From contig NZ_BBXE01000017.1 in NCBI RefSeq assembly GCF_001570565.1, forward strand, positions 62,001-126,000: a stretch of 64,000 nucleotides of DNA, read 5' to 3'. A program made the position numbers and the translations under genes. The stretch comes from Herbidospora yilanensis (GTDB taxonomy: Bacteria; Actinomycetota; Actinomycetes; Streptosporangiales; Streptosporangiaceae). The notes below the pieces were generated by a model, which worked only from the letters and a program-made list of their open reading frames with translations, was not told the DNA's origin and ran no database searches. Of the stretch, positions 2 through 56,115 are shown piece by piece; the first letter of the stretch is position 1; each line of letters opens with the position of its first letter.

Positions 2-3000
2 GACCGCTGGCGGGACGCCGAACGCCACGCCACCCCGGCCGCCGCCGACCTGGCCCGGCTGCTGCCCGCCGCGGGCGGCCCGCGCACGGCGAGCCCGGCG
101 TCGTTCAGCTTCGCCCGCTTCCCGGCCGCGACCGGACCCGGCTGCCCGGTGGAGGCCGTCGTGACCGCCGCCGCGACCGCGTCGGCCGCGACCAGGCTCG
201 GCCTGCTGTGCTGGGAGTCCGGCGGCGCGTTGCGGTTCTCGTGGAACTTCCCGTCGCGGCTGTTCCGCCGGGCCACGGTCGACCGGCTGGCGGCCGAGCA
301 CCTGGCCGAGCTCTCCGTCGCCGAGCTCTCCGTCGCCGGGAGGCCCGGGCTGGCGGCCCGGTTGCGCGCGCGGTTCCGCGCCACCCCCGACGCCGTCGCC
401 GTCGACACCGGCACCACCCGGCTGACCTACGCCGAGCTCGACCGGCGCTCCGCCGCGCTGGCCAACCGGCTGCGCGGGGCCGGCGACCTGATCGGGCTGA
501 TGACCGAACCCGGGATCGACACGGTCGTCGGCCTGGTCGGCATCGTGCGCGCGGGCGCGGGCTGGGTGCCGCTCGACGCCTCCCATCCGGAGGCCCGCCG
601 CCGCGACCAGCTCGCCCGCTGCGGGGTGACCACGGTCGTCACCGACACCTCGGGCGAGGGCTCCTACGACGCCCCGGACGACACCCCGGACGTCTCCCCC
701 GACGCGACCGCCTACGTCATCTTCACCTCCGGCTCGACCGGCCGCCCCAAGGGCGTGCCCATCACCTACCGGTCGGTGGAGAACTACCTCGACTGGGCGC
801 TGGACACCTTCGGCTACCACGCGGGCGACCGGCTGGCGCAGACGGCGTCGATCTGCTTCGACGCCTCGGTCCGGCAACTGCTGGCCCCGCTGCTGGCCGG
901 GGCGACGGTGGTGACGTTCACACGGGAGGAGGTGCGCGACCCCGGCCTGCTGGCCGGGCGGCTCCGCGACGTCACGGTGTGGAGCTCGGTGCCGAGCCTG
1001 TGGTCGCGGCTGCTGGACCTCGGGCCCGTCGAGCACCGGCTGCGCTGGATCCACGTCGGCGGCGAGGCGCTGCCGCCGGAGCACGTGCGCCGCTGGTTCG
1101 ACCTGTACGGCCCCGGCGCCCGCATCGCCAACCTCTACGGCCCGACCGAGTCGACCATCAACACCACCTGCCACATCCTCGACGGGCGCCCCGCCGACGA
1201 CGTCACCGTCATCCCGATCGGCCGGCCCGTCGCGGGCACCTTCGTCGAGGTGGACGACTCGGGCGAGCTCCTCATCGCCGGGGCCGGTCTCACCCCCGGC
1301 TACCTCGACGACCCCGGCACGGCGTTCGTCGAACGCGACGGCGTGCGGTGGTACCGCAGCGGCGACCGCGTCCGGCGCGACGCCAACGGCGACCTGGTCT
1401 TCCTCGGGCGGCTCGACGCGCAGGTCAAGGTGCGGGGCCACCGGGTGGAGCCGGGCGAGGTCGAGGCGGCGTTCCACACGCATCCGGACGTCGCGCGGGC
1501 CGCCGTGGCGCTCACCGGCGAACGGCTGACCGCCTTCGTCGAACCCCGGCCCGGCCGCGACCCCGACCCCGTCGCGCTGCGCGGGCACCTGGGGGCGACG
1601 CTGCCCGCGTACATGATCCCGGCCCGGATCGAGATCGTGCCCGCGCTCCCGCAGACCACCACGGGCAAGATCGACCGCCGCGAGCTCGGCGGGACCCCGC
1701 CCGCGACCCCGACCGAGGAGCTGGTCGCCGAGGTGTGGCGCGCGCTGCTGGAGGTGCCGCGGGTGTCGCGTGAGGACGACTTCTTCGCGCTCGGCGGCGA
1801 CTCGATCATGATCCTGCGCGTGTTCGAGATGCTCGGTGAGCACATCGACCCGCTGCCGCGCCCGACGGTCGTCTACGAGCACGGCACGCTGGCCGCGCTG
1901 GCCCGGGCCATCGACGACGCCGAGCCCGCCGCCTTCCTCCCCCAGCCGGCCGGCGGGCCGTTCCCGCTGACATCCGCGCAGCGCGGATTCCGGCTGGCCG
2001 GCCAGGCGTGGCTGGCGACGCTGCGGGTGCACGGGCCGGTCGACCGGGAGCGGTTCCAGCACGCGGTCGACGCCTGCGTGGCCCGGCACGGGATGCTGCG
2101 CACGATCTTCCCCGGCGAGACGCAGCAGGAGCTTCCCGACACCCTGCGGCTGCCCGTGATCTTCGAGGACGCCGCCGACCCGGCCGCGTCGATCGCCGCC
2201 GAGCGGGCCCGCGTCTTCGAGCCGTGGGCGTGGCCGCTGCTGCGGCTCCGCCTGGTCACGCTGACGCCCGACGAGCACGTGCTGGTCGTGCACGCCCACC
2301 ACCTGATCGGCGACGGCTACAGCGCCGCGCTGCTGGCGCGCGAGCTGCTGGCCGCCTACGACGGGGTGGCGTCGCCCGCGCCGCGCAGCACGTTCCGTGA
2401 CCACGTCGCCCGGCTCCGGCCTCCGGCGGGCGGGCGAGCGGCGTACCGGAAACCCGTGGTGGCGCCCGGACCGGCCCGCACGACGGCCTTCACCGTCGGC
2501 GCGGCACCGCTGCGGCGGGCCGCCTCGGAGGCGGGCACGACGCTGTTCGTCGCGGTGCTGGCCGCCTACCGCCGGGCGCTGGCCGCGTTCACCGGCCACG
2601 ACGACCTCCTGCTCGGCGTCGCGGTGTCCGGCCGCGACGACGCGCCGCCCGACGCCCACCTGGTCTTCGGCCCGTACGCGCACGCGGTGCCGGTCCGGCC
2701 AGCCTCCGGCGACCTGCGGGCGGTGGCCGGGGAGGTGACCGCCGCCCGCGCGGCCGGGGCCGAGGACATCAGGTCGGCCCAGTTCTTCTTCAGCTACCTC
2801 GACTTCACCGCGCTTGGCCCACTGGAGGGCCGCAGCCTGCGGCTGACCTGGGACCTCGACGGGGAGATCGCCCCCGTGGGCGCGCAGACCTTCCTGTCGG
2901 TCCGGCCCACGCCCGGCGGCGACCTGCGGATGGTGCTGCGCACCGCCGTGGCCGACGCGGAACGTTTCGAACGACTGCTGCGAGCCGAACTACCGGCCCC

Positions 3001-4150
3001 GGACGCGACCCCGACCGGCCGCCCGCCGCTGACCGGTCAGGTGCGGCCGCTCGCCGGCGACACCACCCTCGTCGGCCATCTGCCTCCGTTCGAACAGGTG
3101 CGGGCCGTCGCCGGAGACGCCGCCCTGGTCGGTTATCCGCCACCCCTCGGCCAGGTGCGGGCCGTCGCCGGAGACGCCGCCCTGAACGCGACCCTGGACG
3201 CCGCCCTGGTCGGTTATCTGCCTCCCTTCGGCCAGGTGCGGGTCCTGGCCGGAGACGCCACCCTGACCAGGGAGGGCGTGCGCGCCCTGCTCTTCCCCGA
3301 CGGCCGCCCGCGCCTGGCCGAGGAGCTGCGCACCCCGCTCGGCCGGTCGGGCTTCGTCTGCCTGCCGCTGTTCGCCGACGAGCTCGCGAGCACGCCCGGC
3401 CTGGCCGCGCGCACCGCCGAGGCCGTCGAGCACGCCGCCGCGCTGGGCGCGCGGACCGTGTCGCTGGCCGGGATGATCCCGTCGCTGACCGGCTACGGCT
3501 TCGACGTGGCACGGCGGACCGGCGTGCCCGTCACCACCGGCCACGCCGCGACGGCCGTGTCGGTGGTGCTGACCGTCCAGAAGGCGCTGGCGGGCCGCTC
3601 GCCGCGTGAGATGACCGTCGCCTTCGTCGGCCTCGGCTCCATCGGCCGCTCGGCCCTCGGCCTGCTGCTGACTGTGGAGGACCCGCCGGGACGGCTGCTG
3701 CTGTGCGACGGCGCGGCCCCGCTCGACGGCCTGCACCCCGGCGCGGAGAGCTGCGGCGTCGACCGGGTCTACGAGGCCGGCCTGATCGTCGCGGCGGTGA
3801 GCGGCCACGAGGCCGTCATCGACGTCGACCGGCTGCGGCCCGGCACGATCGTCGTGGACGACTCCTTCCCCCACTGCTTCGACGTCGCCAAGGCGCGGGC
3901 CCGGCGGGACGTCACGGTGGTCGGCGGCGGCCTGCTGTCGATGCCGGGGATCGAACGGCGGCTGGCCGAGGACGTGCCGGCGCCCTGGTTGCCCGGCACC
4001 ATCGCCTCCTGCCGCCTGGAGTCCCTCGTCCCCGGCCTGCCGCCGGTGCTCGGCCTGGTCGACCCGGAGACGGCCCTCGCCTGGTGGCGCGCGATGACCG
4101 CCGCCGGGGTCGAGGCCGCGCCGCTCCACCTCGCGGGCGAATGGGTCTAG
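2..4150 (+). CDS. Nonribosomal peptide synthetase, 3' part, with a terminal acyl-ACP-reductase-like domain (5' end outside window)
   Basis: The frame is open from base 2, so the gene starts upstream of the window. Visible order: tail of a condensation or epimerisation domain (to about base 340); adenylation domain (about 360-1690) with LTYAEL, the FTSGSTGRPKG loop, NLYGPTE, YRSGD and TTTGKIDR; peptidyl carrier domain with LGGDS, Ser codon at 1802-1804; condensation domain with HHLIGDG near 2297-2317; a 57-bp repeat stretch (3038-3270); and a C-terminal NAD(P)-binding domain with GLGSIG near 3630. The last domain follows the cyanobacterial long-chain acyl-ACP reductase pattern: a GHLxxxEQ(A/V)R start, an SLAG segment, VTTGHAATA matching TTGNTHTA, the dinucleotide loop, and a late Cys (codon 4010-4012, IASC) where that enzyme has its acylated Cys. 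There is no thioesterase. By-eye specificity residues against GrsA read D-A-R-S-I-V-L-I-N-K; I recognise no substrate. NRPS call certain; reductase assignment by memory alignment. Confidence 0.9.
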   Translation, partial: DRWRDAERHATPAAADLARLLPAAGGPRTASPASFSFARFPAATGPGCPVEAVVTAAATASAATRLGLLCWESGGALRFSWNFPSRLFRRATVDRLAAEHLAELSVAELSVAGRPGLAARLRARFRATPDAVAVDTGTTRLTYAELDRRSAALANRLRGAGDLIGLMTEPGIDTVVGLVGIVRAGAGWVPLDASHPEARRRDQLARCGVTTVVTDTSGEGSYDAPDDTPDVSPDATAYVIFTSGSTGRPKGVPITYRSVENYLDWALDTFGYHAGDRLAQTASICFDASVRQLLAPLLAGATVVTFTREEVRDPGLLAGRLRDVTVWSSVPSLWSRLLDLGPVEHRLRWIHVGGEALPPEHVRRWFDLYGPGARIANLYGPTESTINTTCHILDGRPADDVTVIPIGRPVAGTFVEVDDSGELLIAGAGLTPGYLDDPGTAFVERDGVRWYRSGDRVRRDANGDLVFLGRLDAQVKVRGHRVEPGEVEAAFHTHPDVARAAVALTGERLTAFVEPRPGRDPDPVALRGHLGATLPAYMIPARIEIVPALPQTTTGKIDRRELGGTPPATPTEELVAEVWRALLEVPRVSREDDFFALGGDSIMILRVFEMLGEHIDPLPRPTVVYEHGTLAALARAIDDAEPAAFLPQPAGGPFPLTSAQRGFRLAGQAWLATLRVHGPVDRERFQHAVDACVARHGMLRTIFPGETQQELPDTLRLPVIFEDAADPAASIAAERARVFEPWAWPLLRLRLVTLTPDEHVLVVHAHHLIGDGYSAALLARELLAAYDGVASPAPRSTFRDHVARLRPPAGGRAAYRKPVVAPGPARTTAFTVGAAPLRRAASEAGTTLFVAVLAAYRRALAAFTGHDDLLLGVAVSGRDDAPPDAHLVFGPYAHAVPVRPASGDLRAVAGEVTAARAAGAEDIRSAQFFFSYLDFTALGPLEGRSLRLTWDLDGEIAPVGAQTFLSVRPTPGGDLRMVLRTAVADAERFERLLRAELPAPDATPTGRPPLTGQVRPLAGDTTLVGHLPPFEQVRAVAGDAALVGYPPPLGQVRAVAGDAALNATLDAALVGYLPPFGQVRVLAGDATLTREGVRALLFPDGRPRLAEELRTPLGRSGFVCLPLFADELASTPGLAARTAEAVEHAAALGARTVSLAGMIPSLTGYGFDVARRTGVPVTTGHAATAVSVVLTVQKALAGRSPREMTVAFVGLGSIGRSALGLLLTVEDPPGRLLLCDGAAPLDGLHPGAESCGVDRVYEAGLIVAAVSGHEAVIDVDRLRPGTIVVDDSFPHCFDVAKARARRDVTVVGGGLLSMPGIERRLAEDVPAPWLPGTIASCRLESLVPGLPPVLGLVDPETALAWWRAMTAAGVEAAPLHLAGEWV
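3038..3270 (+). repeat. In-frame 57-bp tandem repeat inside the NRPS gene
   Basis: The nonamer CAGGTGCGG recurs at 3038, 3095, 3152 and 3233, so the period is 57, 57 and 81 bases; the last unit carries a 24-base internal duplication. Each unit encodes about 19 residues of the type QVRxxAGDxxLVGxxPPx. The unit resembles the first residues of acyl-ACP reductase (GHLxxxEQAR), which suggests the start of the reductase domain was duplicated in tandem. Confidence 0.85.
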
Positions 4151-4740
4151 CGGGCCGTGACGGCCACCAGTTCCCGGTGGCGGGTGGGCCGCTCCGCCTC
4201 GTCGACCACGGCCGCCGCCAGGTCGGCGTAGCCGAAGGTCTCGTCTGCGGGCGCCGCGCGCCCGCCGATCCGGTGCCGCCCGGTCGCCGGTTCCTCGTTC
4301 AGGAAGACCGGCGGCGGGGCGAGCACCACCCAGTCGAGCCCCGATCCCCGCAGCACGCCGAGCTCCTCGACGTGCCCGAGGGTGAAGGCCCGCGCGTCCT
4401 CCGGGAAGCCGGGCGTCTCGTACAGCGGCACGCCCTCCGGCGTCTCCAGCGTCGTGCCGATGCCGACCGCCACGAGCCGGGTCACGCCGGCCCCGGCCAT
4501 CCCGTCGGCCAGGGACCGGGCCGCCCGCGCGAAGAAGCCCGGCTCATGCCGGCCCGCCGCCATCACGACCGCGTCCTGCCCGGCGACCAGGGAGGCCACC
4601 GACACGGGGTCGGTGACGTCGCCGACCGTCCAGTCGCCCGGACGGCGGGAGACGCCGGTCACCTCGTGCCCGCGCGCGCCCGCCTCGGTCACGATCCTGC
4701 GGCCCGCCCGGCCGCCCGCTCCGAAAACCACGATTCTCAT
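4147..4740 (-). CDS. NAD(P)-binding oxidoreductase, NmrA/SDR-like
   Basis: A 197-residue atypical short-chain dehydrogenase-like protein. It opens with MRIVVFGAGGRAG, a GxGGxxG dinucleotide-binding loop directly after the start, followed by a basic stretch (VSRRPGDW) typical of NADP use. Later segments (QDAVVMAAGRHEPG, TRLVAVGIGTT, LDWVVLAPPP) match the NmrA/YwnB-type Rossmann family, which lacks the classical YxxxK pair. The ATG at 4738-4740 was chosen because the fold begins there; an upstream in-frame ATG at 4779 would overlap the divergent promoter. The stop overlaps the NRPS stop on the other strand. It faces an HxlR regulator across 63 bases, a common arrangement for a redox- or electrophile-inducible reductase. 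Substrate unknown. Confidence 0.8.
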   Translation of the reverse strand: MRIVVFGAGGRAGRRIVTEAGARGHEVTGVSRRPGDWTVGDVTDPVSVASLVAGQDAVVMAAGRHEPGFFARAARSLADGMAGAGVTRLVAVGIGTTLETPEGVPLYETPGFPEDARAFTLGHVEELGVLRGSGLDWVVLAPPPVFLNEEPATGRHRIGGRAAPADETFGYADLAAAVVDEAERPTRHRELVAVTAR

Positions 4741-4791
4741 GGGGCGTGACGCTAACCTGCGCACCCTTGGTTTCCGCAACGATACTCACGT

Positions 4792-4805
4792 ACCCTCCCG
4801 AGGGT
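4792..4805. promoter_or_regulatory. Inverted repeat at the HxlR start, possible operator
   Basis: ACCCTC-CC-GAGGGT is a perfect 6-bp inverted repeat that reaches into the GTG start codon of the HxlR gene. It sits in the 63-base gap between divergent genes, so it could serve autoregulation. Chance occurrence in GC-rich DNA is possible. Confidence 0.35.
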
Positions 4806-5166
4806 GGCAGAGCCTCTCGACCCCGACATGTTCGCCGGATGCGCACCCGTCACCGCGCCCGTCCGGATCGGCGACAAGTGGACCGCGAAGATCATCCGCT
4901 GCCTCCAGGACGGCCCCCGGCGCTACTCCGAGCTCAAGGTCCCGCTGACCGGCATCACCCCGAAGGTGCTGACCGAGTCGCTGCGCTCGATGGAACGCGA
5001 CGGCCTGCTGACCCGGACCGCCCATCCGGGCATCCCGCCGAAGGTCGTGTACGAACTCTCGCCCCTCGGCCACTCCCTGGTCGAACCGCTCGACACCCTG
5101 TGCGCCTGGTCCCGGGCCAACCTCCCGAAGGTGTTGTCGGCCCGGGACGCCTACGACGTCACCTGA
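4804..5166 (+). CDS. HxlR-family winged-helix transcriptional regulator
   Basis: A 120-residue single-domain regulator. The segment IGDKWTAKIIRCLQDGPRRYSELKVPL followed by GITPKVLTESLRSMERDGLLTR is the HxlR/DUF24 winged helix, with the recognition helix in the second part. A Cys at residue 13 lies just before the first helix, the position used by redox- or quinone-sensing members of the family (known for YodB/HypR types; inferred here). The GTG start follows family length. It is divergent from the NmrA-like oxidoreductase and probably controls it. Nothing downstream on the same strand. Confidence 0.88.
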   Translation: MAEPLDPDMFAGCAPVTAPVRIGDKWTAKIIRCLQDGPRRYSELKVPLTGITPKVLTESLRSMERDGLLTRTAHPGIPPKVVYELSPLGHSLVEPLDTLCAWSRANLPKVLSARDAYDVT

Positions 5167-5214
5167 CGTGCCGCCCTCCCGCTCCCGGCCCGGTGAGGCT
5201 CGAAGTCCACGGGA

Positions 5215-7524
5215 TCAGCCCCCGCCCGCCCCGGGCGACGGGGTCGGCGTGCCACCCTGGCCCGGCCCGTTTCCGGGACCGTTCTGTCCCGGGTCGTTCT
5301 GACCCGGATCGCCGTTCCCCGGGTTGCCGGGCCCGGGGTCGTTGGGGCCGGGGTCATTGGGGCCCGGGTCGTTCGGGCCGGGGTCGTCGGGCCCGGGACC
5401 GTCGGTGCCCGGGTCGGTCGTGCCGGGGCCGGTCTGGTCCCAGCCGTCCGGGGGGCCGTACTGGTCCCACGGGTCCTGGCCGTAGGGGTTGTCGTCCCAG
5501 AAGTCCCAGCGTTCCTCCGCGCCGAACCGCGCCTGGTCGATCGGGGTGAACGGCGTCGCGGGAACGCCTTCCAGCGCGGCCAGCATGGTCGCCTTCCAGA
5601 TCGGGCCCGGGACGGTCGCGCCGAAGACCGAGCCGTACCAGCGGCCGCCGATCGTCACGTTGTTCAGCTTGTGGGTGCTGGCGCCGCGCGGGTCGGCCAG
5701 GCTGACCGCGCCGGCCAGGTCGGGGGTGAAGCCGGCGAACCAGGCGCTCGACTGGTTGTCGTTGGTGCCGGTCTTGCCGGCCGCCGGGCGGCCGATGCCG
5801 CCGACGCTCCTCATGGTGCCCTCGGTGAACACCCCGGACAGGATGTCGGCGGCGGCGTCGGCGACCTCCGCCTCGATGGCCTGCGTGCAGTCCGGCGTGA
5901 ACGACGTCTTCTTCCCGTCGCGGTCGGTGACGGCGGTGATGGCCATCGGCTCGCAGTACTTGCCGCGCGCGCCGATCGCCGCGTAGGCGTTGGCGACGGT
6001 CACCGGGTCCATCTCGTTGATGCCGAGCGTGAAGGTCTCGAACTCCTGGAGCTTCTTGCCGTCGGCGCGCTTGATGCCGAGCGACTTGGCCGTCTTGACC
6101 GTCTCGCACAGCCCGACGCGCGCCTCCAGTTCCATGAAGAACGTGTTGACCGAGCCCCACGTCCCGGTCTGGAGGGTGGTGTAGCCGGGCGAGCCCTCGT
6201 CGTTGGTCACCGCGTGGTTCGGGTCGCCGACGGCGTTGCCGGCGCAGTCGGTGAACGCCGAGGGCGACGGCGCGGTGTACGACCCGCCGACGTTGAACCC
6301 GTCGCTCAGCCGCATGCCCTGGCCCAACGCCGTGAGCAGCGTGAACGTCTTGAACGTCGAGCCCGCCTGGACGCCCCCGAGCCCGCCGTGGGCGCGGTCG
6401 GCGACCACGTTGTAGTCGAGGTTGTCGCGGCTGGCGGCCATCGCGCGGATCGCGCCGGTGCCCGGTTCGACGAGCGCCTGGGCGGCCACCGGCCCGTCCT
6501 TCTTCCCGACGTACGCCTCGATGCCCTTCTGGGCGGCGTCCTGCATCGTCGGGTTCAGGGTGGTGCGGATCGTCATGCCGCCCTGCCTGAGGGCGCGTTC
6601 GCGGTCCGACCGGGTCTTGCCGAAACGTTTGTCGGCCAGGACCTCGGCGGCGACGTACTGGCAGAAGTAGCGGTAGTCGCTCGTCTCGCACCCGCCGGGG
6701 ATCGGCACGCCCTTGTAGCCGAGCTTGGTCTTCTTCGCCTTCGCCGCCTCGGCGGGGGTGATCTTGCCGAGTTCGGCCATCCGGTCGAGGACGACGTTGC
6801 GGCGGGCGACCAGCGCGTCGCGGTTGGTCTTGCCGCCCTCGGGGTCGGTGGCGGTCGGCAGCCGGACCGCCGCCGCCAGCGTCGCCGACTGGGCCAGGTT
6901 CAGCTTGGCCGCCGGGACGCCGAAGAAGCGTTTGGCCGCGGCCTGGATGCCGTGGGCGCCCGCGCCGAAGTAGGCGATGTTCAGGTACTTCTCGAGGATC
7001 TGGTCCTTGGTGTACTTCTCCTCGACCGACAGCGCGTAGCGGAGTTCGTTCAGCTTGCGGACGTAGCTCGGCGCGAGCGCCGCCTCCTTCTGCTCGTCGG
7101 TGGTGGCGCTGTTGAGAAGGACCTGCTTGACGTACTGCTGGGTGATGCTGGAGCCGCCCTGGGCGACGCCGCCCGCGCTGAGGTTGGCGGCCAGGGCGCG
7201 GATGGTGCCCTCGATGTCGATGGCGCCGTGCTGGTAGAAGCGGTCGTCCTCGATGGCCACGATCGCGGTGCGCATGACGGGCGCGACCTTGTCGATGGTG
7301 ACGATCTCGCGGTACTGGTCGTAGAACTGGGCGATCCGCCTGCCGTCGGCGTCGAGGAGGGTGGTCTTCTCGGCCAGCGGCGGTTCGGCCAGTTCCATGG
7401 GGCTCAGGTCGATGGTCTCGGCCACCCCGCTCAGGGCGATCCCGGCCGGGACGGCGAGGCCGGCGGTGAGCACCCCGGCGGCGATTCCGGCCACGAGCAG
7501 GCCGGGCATGTTACGCAGGCGCAT
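5215..7524 (-). CDS. Class A penicillin-binding protein (transglycosylase/transpeptidase)
   Basis: A 769-residue bifunctional peptidoglycan synthase. Residues 7-33 form the membrane anchor. The glycosyltransferase family 51 domain shows EDDRFYQHGAIDIEG (catalytic Glu about residue 92) and GGSSITQQYVKQ. The transpeptidase domain has the serine in GSTFK (about residue 388), SVN as second motif and KTGT as third. The last 70 or so residues are a disordered tail of DPGPN/DPGQN repeats (bases about 5220-5420). The start ATG shares one base with the beta-lactamase stop (TGATG), so translation is coupled to that gene. Placement of a full-size class A PBP as the second gene of a beta-lactamase operon suggests a dedicated cell-wall enzyme induced with it. 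A GTG-free alternative start is not evident. Confidence 0.93.
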   Translation of the reverse strand: MRLRNMPGLLVAGIAAGVLTAGLAVPAGIALSGVAETIDLSPMELAEPPLAEKTTLLDADGRRIAQFYDQYREIVTIDKVAPVMRTAIVAIEDDRFYQHGAIDIEGTIRALAANLSAGGVAQGGSSITQQYVKQVLLNSATTDEQKEAALAPSYVRKLNELRYALSVEEKYTKDQILEKYLNIAYFGAGAHGIQAAAKRFFGVPAAKLNLAQSATLAAAVRLPTATDPEGGKTNRDALVARRNVVLDRMAELGKITPAEAAKAKKTKLGYKGVPIPGGCETSDYRYFCQYVAAEVLADKRFGKTRSDRERALRQGGMTIRTTLNPTMQDAAQKGIEAYVGKKDGPVAAQALVEPGTGAIRAMAASRDNLDYNVVADRAHGGLGGVQAGSTFKTFTLLTALGQGMRLSDGFNVGGSYTAPSPSAFTDCAGNAVGDPNHAVTNDEGSPGYTTLQTGTWGSVNTFFMELEARVGLCETVKTAKSLGIKRADGKKLQEFETFTLGINEMDPVTVANAYAAIGARGKYCEPMAITAVTDRDGKKTSFTPDCTQAIEAEVADAAADILSGVFTEGTMRSVGGIGRPAAGKTGTNDNQSSAWFAGFTPDLAGAVSLADPRGASTHKLNNVTIGGRWYGSVFGATVPGPIWKATMLAALEGVPATPFTPIDQARFGAEERWDFWDDNPYGQDPWDQYGPPDGWDQTGPGTTDPGTDGPGPDDPGPNDPGPNDPGPNDPGPGNPGNGDPGQNDPGQNGPGNGPGQGGTPTPSPGAGGG

Positions 7525-8372
7525 CAAAGTTTCCCGAGGCCACGTGCCGCGATCGTGGCGGTCTTGGCGATGACGGATTCGTCGGCGGCGGCGTTCCGGT
7601 CGGTGCGGTTGGTGTAGATCGCCATGATGATCGGTTTCTTCGACCCCTTCGGCCAGATGATCGCGTAGTCGTTGGCGGTCCCGTAGGTGCCGCCGGTCCC
7701 TGTCTTGTCGCCGATCCGCCAGCTCTTGGGCAGCCCGGCGCGGATCCGGTCGTCGCCGGTCTCGTTGGCGACGAGCCAGCCGGTGAACGTGCGGCGGTCG
7801 CCCGCGTCGAGGGCGCCGCCCACGGTGAGGACCTTCAGATCCGCGGCGATGGCGGCCGGCGTGGTGGTGTCGCGGAGCTCCCCCGGGTGCCAGCGGTTGA
7901 GACCGGGTTCGTCGCGGTCGAGGCGCGACACGTGGTCGTCCAGGCTCCGGAAGTACCGGGTCAGGCCCTTGGGGCCGCCGACCTGGCGGAGCAGCAGGTT
8001 CGCGGCGGCGTTGTCGCTCTTGGTGACGGCCGCCTTGGCCAGCTCGGCCACGGTCATGCGCGAGCCGACGTGCTTCCGGGTCTCGGGCGAGTTCGGCAGC
8101 AGGTCCTTCTTCCTGACGAGGATCCGCTTTCCGAGGATGTCGGGCTTCTTGTCCAGCACGGCCGCCGCGAGCACTCCCTTGAAGGTCGAGGCCAGCGGGA
8201 AGCGCTCGCCCGACCGGTAGGCGACGGTCCGGCCGGTGGCGGTGTCGAGGGCGTACACGCCGATGCGGCCTTTGAAGGAGGTCTCCAGCGCGCGCAGTTC
8301 CGCGACCGCCGAGGTCGTCGGCGCGGTGACGCCACCGGAGAGCAGGGCGAGGGACATCACGAAGGAAAGCAT
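7524..8372 (-). CDS. bla: Class A beta-lactamase
   Basis: A 282-residue serine beta-lactamase. The hallmarks are STFK (Ser62-Lys65), SDN (119-121), the omega-loop ExxLN (EPGLN, Glu155 the general base) and KTGTG (223-227). The hydrophobic N-terminus (SFVMSLALLSGGV) is a probable export signal, ending near TSA. The ATG at 8370-8372 has no clear Shine-Dalgarno sequence; an internal ATG at 8355-8357 would leave a shorter signal. It faces a LysR gene across 83 bases containing an inverted repeat. The layout LysR/BlaB-like protein divergent from the beta-lactamase is that of the blaA-blaB-blaL system described in Streptomyces cacaoi, where the LysR protein is needed for beta-lactam induction. Confidence 0.94.
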   Translation of the reverse strand: MLSFVMSLALLSGGVTAPTTSAVAELRALETSFKGRIGVYALDTATGRTVAYRSGERFPLASTFKGVLAAAVLDKKPDILGKRILVRKKDLLPNSPETRKHVGSRMTVAELAKAAVTKSDNAAANLLLRQVGGPKGLTRYFRSLDDHVSRLDRDEPGLNRWHPGELRDTTTPAAIAADLKVLTVGGALDAGDRRTFTGWLVANETGDDRIRAGLPKSWRIGDKTGTGGTYGTANDYAIIWPKGSKKPIIMAIYTNRTDRNAAADESVIAKTATIAARGLGKL

Positions 8373-8426
8373 GCCGAGGAGTCTGTTCTGTCAGCGTAAA
8401 TACCGTCAAAGACAGCTAAAGCGTAC

Positions 8427-8447
8427 ATTATGCGTTCATGACATAAT
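8427..8447. promoter_or_regulatory. LysR-type operator candidate between beta-lactamase and its regulator
   Basis: ATTATG-N9-CATAAT is a perfect 6-bp inverted repeat containing the T-N11-A core typical of LysR boxes. It lies 8 bases before the LysR start and 55 bases before the beta-lactamase start, in a notably AT-rich patch. Confidence 0.6.
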
Positions 8448-8455
8448 TCCTGGTC

Positions 8456-9325
8456 GTGGACCTCCTCGCGGCCTGGAGAGTGTTCGTCAACGTGAGCGAA
8501 CGCGGCAGCTTCACCGAGGGCGCCGCCGCCTCCCAGGTCCCCCAGCCCGTGGCCAGCCGCCGCATCGCCGCCCTCGAACAGCACCTCGGCGCCAAGCTCT
8601 TCGACCGGTCCGCGCGGGGCGCGCTGCTGACCGACTTCGGCCGCGACCTGCTCCCGTCGGCGCAGCGCCTGGTGCGGCTCGCCGACGACATGGAGTGGGA
8701 GGCCGGACAGGCCCGGCTCAAGCCGCTCCGGCTGGCCGTCCCGGAGATCTGCGCGGTCCGCGACCTGGCCCTGCTGACGGTGGAGGCCCGGCAGGAGGGC
8801 GTGCACCTCGACGTGGTCGCCGCCGCCGCCGGGATCAGGGCCGAACTGGCGCGCTCCCGCGAGGTCCGCGCCGCCCTGGTCGCCACGCCGGAGGACGGCG
8901 CGACGTGGGTGGTCGATCTGGGCCTGGCCGGCCTGACGGGTCCGCCGGGTCCGGTCGTGTACGTCGAGAGCCTCCGGCCGGGCCGCGCCGACAGGTCGGG
9001 CCGCCGGCCGAGGATCTGGATCCAGCCGGAGGACGACGTCCCGCACATCAGGGACCGCCTCTTCCGGATCAGGGACGCCGCCGGCCTGCTCCCCTCCCAG
9101 GTCGCCGTCGCGCCCTCGCTGGTGACGGCCGCCGCCGAGGTGATGGTCTCGGCCGACCTGCTGTTGTGCTCCCCCCGCCAGGCCGCCGACCTCGGCCTGG
9201 CGTGGCGGCCCGCCGGTGAGATCCGCCTCACGCGCGGGTACGCTGTGGCCTCCGCCATCGGGGACGACGCCGAGCGGGTGCGGGGATGGCGTCGGGTGGC
9301 CGCCTGCCTGGGGGTTGACGCGTGA
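8456..9325 (+). CDS. LysR-family transcriptional regulator, BlaA-like
   Basis: A 289-residue LysR protein. The N-terminal winged helix is clear: LLAAWRVFVNVSERGSFTEGAAASQVPQPVASRRIAALEQHLGAKLFDRS. The rest is an effector-binding domain of usual length. The GTG at 8456 is the only start that gives the standard LysR N-terminus. Its stop overlaps the GTG of the next gene (GTGA), so the BlaB-like protein is co-translated. It is divergent from the beta-lactamase/PBP operon and very likely activates it in response to beta-lactams or cell-wall fragments; this is inferred from the S. cacaoi blaA arrangement and from AmpR, not shown here. Confidence 0.9.
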   Translation: MDLLAAWRVFVNVSERGSFTEGAAASQVPQPVASRRIAALEQHLGAKLFDRSARGALLTDFGRDLLPSAQRLVRLADDMEWEAGQARLKPLRLAVPEICAVRDLALLTVEARQEGVHLDVVAAAAGIRAELARSREVRAALVATPEDGATWVVDLGLAGLTGPPGPVVYVESLRPGRADRSGRRPRIWIQPEDDVPHIRDRLFRIRDAAGLLPSQVAVAPSLVTAAAEVMVSADLLLCSPRQAADLGLAWRPAGEIRLTRGYAVASAIGDDAERVRGWRRVAACLGVDA

Positions 9326-10200
9326 TCCGTGACCTGCGCCGGATGCTCGACGAGGGCGGCCTGCGCGGCTCGTTCCTGGTGCGCGACCTGCGCACCGGCG
9401 AGGAGATCGGCATCGACCCCGACGACGAGTACACCACCGCGTCCCTGGTCAAGATCCCGCTGGCCGCCGCCACCCTCGACCGCATCCGGCGCGGCGAACT
9501 CGACGGCGCCGCCCGCCTGACGGTCGGCCCCGGCGCCCGCCACTCCCCCGGCCCGACGGGCACCAGCCGGTTCCGCCACCCGGCCGACATCGCCGTCGAC
9601 GACCTGCTCCACCTGACGATGACGGTCAGCGACAACACCGCCGGCGACGCCCTGTTCGAGCTGACCCCGCCCGCGATGGTGGCCGCCTTCCTGGAGGAGC
9701 ACGGCCTGCGCGGCATCTCCGTCCGCCACACGCTGCGCCACCTGACCGAGAGCCCGGTGCAGGCGCTCGGCGGCCACCTGGCCCATGTGCTGGCCATCGA
9801 GGGCACGACCGCCGGACGCGGCCACCCGGTGCCCGAGCTCGACGTGACCCGGGGGTCGTCGGGCTCGGCCCGCGCCTTCGTCGACCTGCTGGCGGCGTTG
9901 TGGCGGCCGTCCAGGATCGACCCCTGGGTGGCCGGGCGGGTGCGCGAGCTGATGGGCGACAACGTGCTCCGCCAGCGCCTGGCCCCCGACTTCACCTCCG
10001 ACCTGACGACGTGGTCGTCCAAGACCGGCACCATGCTCAACCTGCGCCACGAGGTCGGCGTGGTGGAACACGCGGACGGCCGGGTCTACGCCGTGGCGGC
10101 GCTGACGGAGTCGCGCGTCGCGGCGGTCCGCCAGCCCGGCGCGGAGGCGCTGATGGCTCAGGTGGCGCGGGCGTTACGGGATGAGATCCGGTCGCGCTGA
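9322..10200 (+). CDS. BlaB-like serine penicillin-recognising-fold protein
   Basis: A 292-residue protein with the serine beta-lactamase signature in order: ASLVK (Ser41-Lys44), SDN (103-105) and KTG (234-236). It has no export signal, so it should be cytoplasmic, and I see no omega-loop Glu motif, unlike the secreted enzyme across the gap. This matches BlaB of Streptomyces cacaoi, which carries these motifs, is needed for beta-lactamase induction and is not itself a working beta-lactamase (established for that species). The GTG start overlaps the LysR stop, binding the two genes into one operon. Alternatively it could be a cytoplasmic esterase or amidase of the same fold. Confidence 0.85.
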   Translation: MIRDLRRMLDEGGLRGSFLVRDLRTGEEIGIDPDDEYTTASLVKIPLAAATLDRIRRGELDGAARLTVGPGARHSPGPTGTSRFRHPADIAVDDLLHLTMTVSDNTAGDALFELTPPAMVAAFLEEHGLRGISVRHTLRHLTESPVQALGGHLAHVLAIEGTTAGRGHPVPELDVTRGSSGSARAFVDLLAALWRPSRIDPWVAGRVRELMGDNVLRQRLAPDFTSDLTTWSSKTGTMLNLRHEVGVVEHADGRVYAVAALTESRVAAVRQPGAEALMAQVARALRDEIRSR

Positions 10201-10235
10201 CCGGGGCCGCACCGCGATGATCACGGCGGCGGGGC

Positions 10236-11237
10236 TCACCGGCTGAGCAGCACCAGCAGCGCCGCCACCACGACCAGCACGAGCACGGCGACCGGCACGG
10301 TCAGCTTGGCCGCGCTGTAGGGCCGCTCCCCGCGCACCTCCCCGGTGACGCCGTCGACGGTGAACCGCCAGGTCCTCCCGTCGAGCAGGTAGGTTCCGGT
10401 CCAGTACGGCAACAGGACGAGATCCCCGTCGATCGAGGGATACGTGGTGACGACGGAGTGCAGCCGCCGGTCGTCGCCGCCGATGTCGGCCAGGCAGGCC
10501 GCCCTGACGCGGGGTCTCACCGCCGTCTTGGCCTGGTCGAGCGCCTGGTCGGGCGCGACGGTGTAGCGCGCGGTCTCCACCCCCGACAGGTATTCGGCCC
10601 GGAACGGCACCGTCGCGGCGGGCAGTCGCGCCGTCTCCAGGTGCCGGACCCCGGGCACGACCACGTCGGCGAACCGGCGGCCGACCGTGCCGCGCGCGTA
10701 CGTCCAGCGGGTGCGCCGCACCTGGCGGCGTCGCCCGTCGCCGTCGGTCTCGATCCGGTAGTGGTGGTCGCCGCGCCGTCCCCGGTAGCGGGTCACGGTC
10801 TCCAGGTCGAACACCCAGGCCGGCAGGAAGGTGGCGCGCGTCGAGGCGGTGTCGGACACCCGGGCGAGGGATCCGGGCGCGAACCACAACGAGGCCGCCC
10901 ACCCGTCCAGGGCCGCGGACGCGCCCCGCCGGTCGACCGCGAACGGGACCAGCGCGCCGGGCCGCACCTCGCCGCCCAGTTCCCGGACGATCGGCGTCTC
11001 ACAGGCCGGGCACCGCGACGACAACAACGCGGGCGTGGACGTGGTCGCGCACCGGGGACACACCACCCGATGCTCGTCGGTGACGGTCACGGGCAGCCGC
11101 CCGCGCAGCGCCTCCACCGGCCGCCGGGCCACCGGCCCGGTCACCACGAGAGGCTGGAAATCCTGACAGTACGGGCAGCGCATGCCTTCGCCCCCAGGGA
11201 CGTACTCGGTCACGCCGCCACAGAGCTCACAGTGCAC
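10236..11237 (-). CDS. Double zinc-ribbon protein with C-terminal membrane anchor (YdjG-like)
   Basis: A 333-residue protein. The N-terminus holds two zinc ribbons: CxxC pairs at CELC and CPYC, then CPRC and CPAC within the first 80 residues. The middle (about 100-300) is a soluble region without a motif I can name, and the last 25 residues (VPVAVLVLVVVAALLVLL) form one membrane helix. It starts with GTG three bases after the stop of the SPFH gene, so the two are one operon. The pairing of a zinc-ribbon membrane protein with an SPFH protein resembles Bacillus subtilis YdjG/YdjI, which organise a PspA-type protein at the membrane; no PspA is seen nearby. Function beyond that is inference. Confidence 0.7.
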   Translation of the reverse strand: MHCELCGGVTEYVPGGEGMRCPYCQDFQPLVVTGPVARRPVEALRGRLPVTVTDEHRVVCPRCATTSTPALLSSRCPACETPIVRELGGEVRPGALVPFAVDRRGASAALDGWAASLWFAPGSLARVSDTASTRATFLPAWVFDLETVTRYRGRRGDHHYRIETDGDGRRRQVRRTRWTYARGTVGRRFADVVVPGVRHLETARLPAATVPFRAEYLSGVETARYTVAPDQALDQAKTAVRPRVRAACLADIGGDDRRLHSVVTTYPSIDGDLVLLPYWTGTYLLDGRTWRFTVDGVTGEVRGERPYSAAKLTVPVAVLVLVVVAALLVLLSR

Positions 11238-11240
11238 GTG

Positions 11241-11915
11241 CTACCCCCACGGTGGCAGGGGCGTGGTCCGGCCCCCGATGTCGATGTCGCAGATCTCCAG
11301 CCCGGTCTCGGCCAGGTCCCGGCTGACGGCGGCGGCCACCTCGTCGGCCAGCGCCGCGTCGTTGAGCACGCCGATGACCGTCCGCCGCTCCGACCAGGCC
11401 GCGAGCGTGTTCGTCAGCCGCCGGAGCAGCGGCCCCCTGACCGCCTCGGCGACCTGCCCGGCCTCGACGATCGGCTGCCCGGCGACGAGCTGGGTGAGGA
11501 AGGCGGTCGGGTCGGCCACCCGGAAGGAGAAGGTCCCGTGCGCGGCGAGCAGCACCGGCCCCGTCTCGGGGTCGCGGAGCTGCACGGGCCGCCGGGTGCC
11601 CCACTTGAGGCCGGTGAACCTGCGGGTGCTGACGAAGTGCACCTCGGCCTTGTCCGGCGAGCGGAAGCCGTAGCGGAAACCACGAAGCCTGCTGGTCACG
11701 GGGGCGTTGCCGGTCCGCAGGGTCTGCGTGCCGGCATGACACTCCCGGACGATCTGGCCGCCCCGGACGAACAGCGCGACCTGCCATTCCCGGACGATCA
11801 GTTTGCTGCCGTTCTTGAGTTCGTCGAACGGCCGGTCGTACCGCCAGGCGACGACCCCCGGCCGCCCGCCCCTCCACTCGACGATGTCGATCAGTTCGCC
11901 ACGGATCAGGCCCAT
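11241..11915 (-). CDS. SPFH domain protein (YdjI/virion-core-like family)
   Basis: A 224-residue SPFH protein. MGLIRGELIDIVEW at the start and GSKLIVREWQVALFVRGGQIV are the characteristic first strands; AHGTFSFRVADPTAFL lies in the core, and the chain ends soon after the domain without a coiled-coil tail, shorter than classical flotillins. The ATG at 11913-11915 is preceded by a G-rich stretch and begins exactly at the family N-terminus; in-frame codons further upstream would add a basic, unrelated leader. It is the first gene of a two-gene operon with the zinc-ribbon membrane protein. Likely role: membrane-associated scaffold. Confidence 0.82.
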   Translation of the reverse strand: MGLIRGELIDIVEWRGGRPGVVAWRYDRPFDELKNGSKLIVREWQVALFVRGGQIVRECHAGTQTLRTGNAPVTSRLRGFRYGFRSPDKAEVHFVSTRRFTGLKWGTRRPVQLRDPETGPVLLAAHGTFSFRVADPTAFLTQLVAGQPIVEAGQVAEAVRGPLLRRLTNTLAAWSERRTVIGVLNDAALADEVAAAVSRDLAETGLEICDIDIGGRTTPLPPWG

Positions 11916-55066: not shown

Positions 55067-56115
55067 CGAGCCGTCAGGGAGGGTTCACCTTCTGGGTCCT
55101 CCTCATGGCCCTGCCCGTCCTGGAAACGGCCGTCCGGCCCTCGATCCCCCGCTGGGCGGCCGTGGCCGCGATCATCGCCCTCTACCTGTGGACCGCCCGC
55201 AGCCAGTCGCACCTCGCCCTGGCCCTGCTCGGCGTCACGAGTTCGGCGGCCGCCCTGGCCTTCGGCGGCTCCTGGTCGTTCACGCTCACGATGAGCGCCA
55301 TCCTCACCGGAGCCGTCGTCCGCCGATGGCCCGGAGTGGCGCTGCTGGTGCCGCTCACCGCCGTCGCGGTCGTGGCCGCCGTCAGGAGCGACGTCGGGGC
55401 GCTGAACGTCGCCTTCTCCGGGTGGGGGGTGTTCGTCGCCGGGCTGGTGCCGTGGATCATCGTGCAGCTCTGGGACACCATCGCCGAACTCCAGGCCACC
55501 CGGAAGGAGCTCGCCCGGGTGGCCGTCTCGGAGGAGCGCCTGCGCTTCTCCCGCGACCTGCACGACCTGCTCGGCCACACCCTGTCCGTCATGGTCGTCA
55601 AGGCCGAGGTGGTCCGGCGGCTGGCCCCCCGCGACGGCGAGGCCGCCGCCCGGCAGGCCGCCGACATCGAGGAGATCGGCCGCCAGGCCCTCACCCAGGT
55701 CAGGGCCGCCGTCACCGGCTACCGGGGCCGCGGGCTCGACGCCGAGCTCGCCTCCGCCCGCGACGCGCTGACCGCCGCCGGCATCGAGCTGACCGTACGG
55801 AGCCCGCGGAGCCCGCTCACGCCCGAGACCGACGCCCTGCTCGGCTGGGCGGTGCGCGAGGGCGTCACCAACGTGATCCGCCACAGCACCGCCCGGACCT
55901 GCGCCATCACCCTCGTCGTGGGCGCCGGTGACGGTGACGGCGCCGAGCTGACCATCGCCGACGACGGCACCGGGGTCACCGGGCCCGCGTCCGGGAACGG
56001 GCTCGGCGGCCTGCGCGAACGCGTCGAGGCGGCGGGCGGCCGGTTCACCGCCGGGAACGCCCCCGCCGGGGGGTTCGCGCTGACCGTCGGCGTCCCGGAA
56101 GGAGCCACCCCCTGA
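55063..56115 (+). CDS. Sensor histidine kinase, DesK-like
   Basis: A 350-residue kinase with five or six N-terminal helices and no large outer loop, then RFSRDLHDLLGHTLSVMVVKAEVV (phosphoacceptor His in DLHDLLGH, the DesK-type box), and an ATPase domain with AVREGVTNVIRHSTA, DDGTGVTGP and NGLGGLRERVEAAGG. DesK relatives sense membrane fluidity. ATG overlaps the permease stop; its own stop shares a base with the response-regulator ATG (TGATG). The exporter encoded upstream is its likely target or co-sensor. Confidence 0.93.
   Translation: MTSRQGGFTFWVLLMALPVLETAVRPSIPRWAAVAAIIALYLWTARSQSHLALALLGVTSSAAALAFGGSWSFTLTMSAILTGAVVRRWPGVALLVPLTAVAVVAAVRSDVGALNVAFSGWGVFVAGLVPWIIVQLWDTIAELQATRKELARVAVSEERLRFSRDLHDLLGHTLSVMVVKAEVVRRLAPRDGEAAARQAADIEEIGRQALTQVRAAVTGYRGRGLDAELASARDALTAAGIELTVRSPRSPLTPETDALLGWAVREGVTNVIRHSTARTCAITLVVGAGDGDGAELTIADDGTGVTGPASGNGLGGLRERVEAAGGRFTAGNAPAGGFALTVGVPEGATP

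Follow-up and report, generated by a model that had tools for sequence, protein, structure and literature searches.

A PKS-NRPS gene of Herbidospora yilanensis ends in a terminal domain that belongs to the superfamily formed by the acyl-ACP reductase (AAR), PigE and the carmabin TAD, at similarities far above chance. Sequence profile, predicted fold and tree all place it nearer to the carmabin TAD than AAR. We take TAD to mean “terminal amidation domain”, an expansion of our own. The gene is part of a new and widespread actinobacterial family in which a complete condensation domain stands between the carrier and the TAD. From sequence features and analogy, we consider the chances about even that the terminal domain acts as a cysteine-mediated, NAD(H)-binding chain-release domain of TAD type.

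The acid, amide or aldehyde ending of a peptide strongly shapes its activity. In the literature and structures searched, domains of the TAD type are otherwise met only in a few marine cyanobacterial pathways. As the closest relatives of the present domain are proposed to release amides, the choice between amide and aldehyde becomes a clear and testable question. The assembly line, apparently encoded by one gene, could be expressed whole in a laboratory Streptomyces, which would allow this question to be answered and reveal the identity of an orphan lipid-peptide that is widely kept.

Organization of the synthase gene

The window, i.e. the whole stretch of 64,000 nucleotides analyzed (C17:62001-126000), contains the 3′ third of the gene on its forward strand (2-4150), in a frame open to its stop codon and running upstream past the window edge. 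Started at MLLDVLLGAAEDAPG, an inferred start located at contig position 55546, the synthase would have about 3534 aa. Pfam and self-comparison give the domain order AMP-binding (FAAL)-T-KS-AT-KR-T-C-A-T-C, followed by the terminal domain, the first domain being assigned as a FAAL from the solved structures that it matches below 1e-30, 3pbk, 3kxw, FadD23 and FadD32 among them. The absence of a thioesterase or an SDR-type terminal reductase, proposed in the initial annotation, agrees with the lack of any Pfam match to either of them in the whole synthase protein, and the last 387 aa match no Pfam family. The relatives have the same domain order wherever their locus reaches far enough, the exceptions being domains split or missed by single-sequence comparison, such as the AT in L074, L077 and L078.

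The adenylation domain (320-1702, forward strand) has a code starting with D-A-R and finishing with L-I-N, or L-[IV]-N over the family, in the 72 rows, out of 73, where it can be read, position 10 being assumed and not read from the sequence. With this code kept family-wide, the same amino acid is probably used throughout. The last carrier domain (1706-1927) is followed on the same strand by the second condensation domain, C2 (1925-3022), with its HHLIGDG motif at 2297-2317. A role of epimerisation domain was rejected for C2, a judgement made from its solved-structure matches alone, which are C domains. Homologues with the same fusion of a C domain to the terminal domain were found, and the HHxxxDG motif of C2 is kept in 73/73 rows. 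This conservation, despite the lack of a following acceptor carrier, and the best solved match of C2 in single-sequence search, a “special condensation domain” (8z0q), could point to a release by C2 itself through the joining of a small amine, the terminal domain acting before or after it or on a different bond. However, the profile of C2 prefers ordinary C domains, with PvdL first and 8z0q seventh, and the terminal domain is kept as strongly as C2; we consider such a role of C2 improbable.

Limits of the terminal domain

An in-frame linker repeat of four copies (3002-3266, forward strand), spaced by 57, 57 and 81 bases and 67-90% identical to the reference copy, encodes in its last segment the first residues of the terminal domain. 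According to the alignment with relatives, the conserved domain begins at about 3191-3206, at the last repeat copy LDAALVGYLPPF, and it extends to 4147. The start formerly placed at 3038, with the residues GHLPPFEQVR (3074-3103), lies inside the linker repeat and had to be moved; the ending of about 350 residues that had been described does contain an AAR-like domain, but this domain is about 320 residues long. At least L004 and L009, from the same genus, are without the extra repeat copies in the alignment. The window sequence presents a 4-residue deletion compared with its relatives, with the cysteine kept in register according to both profile and relatives, and the AlphaFold model of the terminal domain is good (mean pLDDT 90.4).

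Family placement

The motifs SLAG, VTTGHAATA and GLGSIG, on which the likeness to AAR had been proposed, are all present, and profile and structure comparisons with AAR support the relationship while giving the carmabin TAD as the better match. Against solved structures, the single sequence retrieved an NRPS domain, 9e4x, at 4.6e-30 and the PigE N-terminus at 9.5e-11; a profile of 46 rows retrieved 9e4x at 9.6e-62, PigE at 3e-11 and the cyanobacterial AAR at 2.8e-5. By fold, the best Foldseek match was the “TAD from Carmabin Biosynthetic Pathway” (2e-27, TMq 0.87), AAR coming second (6e-14, TMq 0.74) and 2-hydroxyacid dehydrogenases after a gap (8e-8, TMq 0.32). The titles of the carmabin TAD entries mention complexes with NADH and with NAD, as well as a disulfide of Cys2238 with dephospho-CoA, Cys2238 not being necessarily the equivalent of the cysteine at 4010. 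The reverse search from AAR reached PigE at 4e-17 and no TAD up to E 1, and TIGR04058, the family of cyanobacterial AAR, gave no match at E 0.01, below its curated cut-off. A better match to another Rossmann family, such as shikimate dehydrogenase or glutamyl-tRNA reductase, with a cysteine not conserved in close relatives, had been named as the competing assignment; it was rejected on the family, profile and fold searches, and the cysteine is conserved. Neither of the two enzymes appears among the 50 fold matches listed or among the family matches of the window domain, and Shikimate_DH was matched weakly in one of 46 relatives.

The maximum-likelihood tree of 37 rows is split in two at 100/98. 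On one side, the carmabin TAD is joined by the NRPS family and by two plasmid-encoded proteins, one of Streptomyces and one of Pantoea stewartii, the latter 44% identical to the carmabin TAD. The other side holds AAR and PigE together with 16 AAR-like proteins of actinobacteria, all stand-alone. The tree program warns of long branches, those of AAR, PigE and L129 among them. The residue pattern is concordant with this split, except for a glutamate located three residues after the cysteine. The TAD type is a sister group of the acyl-ACP reductases.

Conserved residues

The cysteine encoded at 4010-4012 (forward strand, in SCRLES) aligns with Cys294 of AAR and Cys296 of PigE, as first proposed for the acyl-Cys position, and also with a cysteine of the carmabin TAD. 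PMC8341465 and PMC9594044 give Cys294 as the acylated residue of AAR and Cys296 of PigE as its match. The AAR-equivalent cysteine is found in every row of the residue table and is invariant in the 80 aligned family rows (the window and 79 relatives), as is a second cysteine of the window domain (3875-3877), within the DDSFPHCFD motif of the TAD side (3857-3883). Three other features were located by alignment on the same strand: the TTGH motif (3533-3544), the GLGSIG dinucleotide-binding loop (3629-3646) and an aspartate ending strand beta-2 (3707-3709). An aspartate at this position is the usual mark of NAD(H), and not NADP(H), binding, and the terminal domain, with its NAD-type loop, is predicted to bind NAD(H), as it should on this pattern.

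The TAD-side rows have the histidine of TTGH, the aspartate ending beta-2, DDS and the second cysteine; the residue before this cysteine is a histidine on that side, replaced by a tyrosine in L129, L131 and one of the 80 family rows. In AAR and the 16 AAR-like rows, an asparagine takes the place of the TTGH histidine, a gap that of the beta-2 aspartate, and the second cysteine is missing; the printed sequence of PigE, which is outside the residue table, reads TSGN and is without PHC. The terminal domain bears all the TAD marks retained here (TTGH, acidic beta-2 end, DDSxPHCF and two cysteines), which were defined in this analysis and do not constitute a published definition. Conversely, the third residue after the cysteine at 4010 is a glutamate in 80/80 family rows, as on the AAR side; in L130, as in the carmabin TAD and the Pantoea protein, it is a serine.

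Distribution and selection

Among the 84,980 species genomes scanned, 128 stretches encode a relative, and the best 80 of these were retained. The relatives kept are from Herbidospora, Nonomuraea, Microtetraspora, Streptomyces, Actinoplanes, Couchioplanes, Ornithinimicrobium and Nocardioidaceae. Among the 295 Streptomyces genomes sampled, 48 match at 1e-20 and 44 at full strength (below 1e-100), which represents a large actinobacterial set. In the family of the host, 7/150 genomes match, six of them within its genus (own genome counted). At the level of the phylum, 29/396 match at 1e-5, four at full strength with the own genome counted, and the 16 inspected among the 25 weaker matches are all stand-alone AAR-like proteins.

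Within Herbidospora, the terminal domain is under purifying selection (dN/dS 0.16-0.49, compared with 0.16-0.35 for C2), and 72 of its positions are invariant in 46 rows, both cysteines and the dinucleotide loop included. A non-catalytic or decaying remnant would hardly be maintained in this way, and we give this explanation very little credit. Beyond the absence of a known product, its one support is L081 (Streptomyces sp. NBRC 110035, 9722-11494), where the terminal domain is split over two ORFs; this split would reflect an assembly error or a broken copy, and L081 was left out of the 80 rows.

The stand-alone AAR-like proteins L111-L126 (362-436 aa), with an AAR-type cysteine, are hosted by actinobacterial genomes that are mostly small (0.8-4.2 Mb). 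The TAD-side protein L127 (9719-11008), annotated as hypothetical, is located in a PKS/NRPS cluster of the Pantoea stewartii plasmid and adjoins a luciferase-like monooxygenase. The TAD-side gene of L131 is found with genes for a KASIII, an alpha/beta hydrolase, an ACP, a KS and a glutamine-dependent NAD-synthetase-like protein (3805-11859); the surroundings of L129 are similar and include ACP and KS genes. The NAD-synthetase-like gene was considered as a sign of ammonia supply and discarded, because it may be the main NAD synthetase of that genome. In L130 (2530-15305), the ORFs that accompany the TAD-side gene resemble, by eye, AMP ligases (two ORFs), a carrier, oxidoreductases and transaminases.

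Genomic setting

Neighbours were compared in 11 genomes (own and ten others) over 10-12 kb downstream of the synthase and about 7-15 kb upstream of it, extended to 21 kb for the own genome, using a simple gene finder and defining a shared family by at least 35% identity and 55% coverage. Only the synthase was common to more than two of these genomes; it counts in 10/11, because other frames were called over the Actinoplanes italicus synthase, and four other families were common to two genomes. Over up to 80 loci, no conserved downstream cluster was found, and none of the families recurred in over 13 loci even when wrong-frame ORFs were counted. Neither an ammonia-supplying gene conserved beside the synthase nor a shared transaminase neighbour was found in the 11 genomes. 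As no neighbour gene is shared by more than two of them, the synthase is probably a one-gene orphan pathway, and given this setting the terminal domain is likely its only dedicated release catalyst.

In Streptomyces fungicidicus, the annotated neighbours code for FAD-binding, WGR, TerB and acyltransferase proteins. Downstream of the synthase in the window (5215-10200), three ORFs were recognized by eye, one resembling a penicillin-binding protein and two of beta-lactamase-like fold, with a LysR-like regulator in between and no apparent link to the synthase.

Proposed release chemistry

The domain order, predicted fold, family placement, cysteine conservation and NAD-type loop were computed, and they serve as a basis to infer the chain transfer to the cysteine, the cofactor use and the product. 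The FAAL would load a fatty acid onto the synthase, KS-AT-KR would add one ketoreduced (beta-hydroxy) unit and C-A-T would append one amino acid, probably the same family-wide. The chain would then move from the last carrier to the cysteine encoded at 4010-4012, and the terminal domain, with its predicted NAD(H) binding, would free it, with NAD(H) either required or assisting, in a form that is not the free acid. C2 has no carrier after it and may serve to introduce an amine or a further acyl group.

By analogy with its relatives, we consider a primary amide to have roughly an even chance of being the released product. In its favour are the carmabin TAD as nearest solved relative by profile (1e-61) and fold, the position on the TAD side of the tree (100/98), the TAD-side residues, the conservation of both cysteines (80/80) and the single-gene setting, to which are added the amidation proposed for HcaD and VatR and the amide of carmabin A in PMC10949194. 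Against it, the glutamate three residues after the cysteine is that of AAR where the carmabin TAD has a serine, no ammonia-supply gene is conserved, a C domain precedes the terminal domain, the tree carries long-branch warnings, and TAD amidation is in that same text a proposal and not a demonstrated activity. Moreover, simple ammonolysis needs no intact NAD(H) site.

The release of the chain as an aldehyde or the reduction of a bound thioester, as suggested in the initial annotation, is thus one of two live options, the nearest relatives being proposed to amidate. NADH would reduce the acyl-Cys once to give an N-acyl amino aldehyde, which might then undergo further reduction or cyclisation. 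The AAR-like fold, the aligned AAR cysteine, the intact NAD(H) loop and the C-x-x-E kept as in AAR are consistent with this outcome, as are PigE and TamH, whose related domains reduce thioesters, TamH being NADH-specific with a detected aldehyde product according to PMC8341465 and PMC9594044. The domain is nevertheless placed on the TAD side of the tree and not with AAR and PigE, and has the extra TAD-side residues; neither an aldehyde-deformylating oxygenase in the own genome nor a shared transaminase neighbour was found, though none is required. We consider this reductive release a real possibility, short of an even chance.

A redox-neutral release would combine both chemistries: reduction of the acyl-Cys by NADH would give a thiohemiacetal or aldehyde, to which ammonia, or an amine that C2 handles, would add, and re-oxidation by the NAD+ so formed would yield an amide, the second invariant cysteine and the histidines of TTGH and PHC taking part. 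We hold this scheme to be rather unlikely; if true, it would account for the complete NAD(H) site in an “amidation” domain, and the family would produce fatty-acyl amino acid amides from a single gene.

Comparison with known systems

An AAR-like domain at the end of an NRPS had seemed unfamiliar at first. As the present domain is closer to the carmabin TAD, an NRPS with such an ending is already known, from the carmabin structures and from the vatiamide (VatR) and hectoramide (HcaD) pathways. In PMC10949194, VatR and HcaD are NRPSs with a domain after the carrier believed to offload the chain via terminal amidation, by a mechanism unstudied at that time, and carmabin A is counted among the terminal amides; their likeness to the window domain is drawn from this description alone. 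The actinobacterial family and a structure paper on the carmabin TAD were not found in the literature searched, which mostly comprised papers accessible without subscription, and absence from print is not implied.

AAR (6jzq, 6jzu) shares with the window domain its fold, a GxGxxG-type loop, the catalytic cysteine and the glutamate three residues after it. It differs by about 20% identity, the asparagine in the TTGH site, the beta-2 gap, the lack of the second cysteine and its stand-alone nature, and it is described as NADPH-dependent. The thioester reductase domains at the N-terminus of PigE and the C-terminus of TamH are of the same superfamily with the same cysteine, in the case of TamH from its published description; PigE groups with AAR in the tree, and both proteins are fused to transaminases whereas the window domain is fused to an NRPS. 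L127 (WP_347449507.1) from Pantoea stewartii and L129, L130 and L131 from Streptomyces have TTGH, the aspartate, DDS and both cysteines like the window domain, but are free-standing and adjoin PKS/NRPS or ACP/KS genes. BurF (malleicyprol) and solanimycin were set aside as comparators, being not comparable or of SDR type.

The carmabin TAD (9e4s, 9e4u, 9e4x, 9e50, 9e56) has in common with the window domain its place at the NRPS end, the fold, both cysteines, TTGH, the acidic beta-2 end and DDSxPHCF. The two are about 28-30% identical and differ by the serine of the former and the glutamate of the latter three residues after the cysteine. The TAD directly follows the carrier in the order given in PMC10949194, and a C domain comes between them in the window. 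Unlike the cyanobacterial TAD systems, the window domain is hosted by an actinobacterial FAAL-PKS-NRPS contained in one gene. The ending described here thus has precedents and represents the TAD type in an actinobacterial variant.
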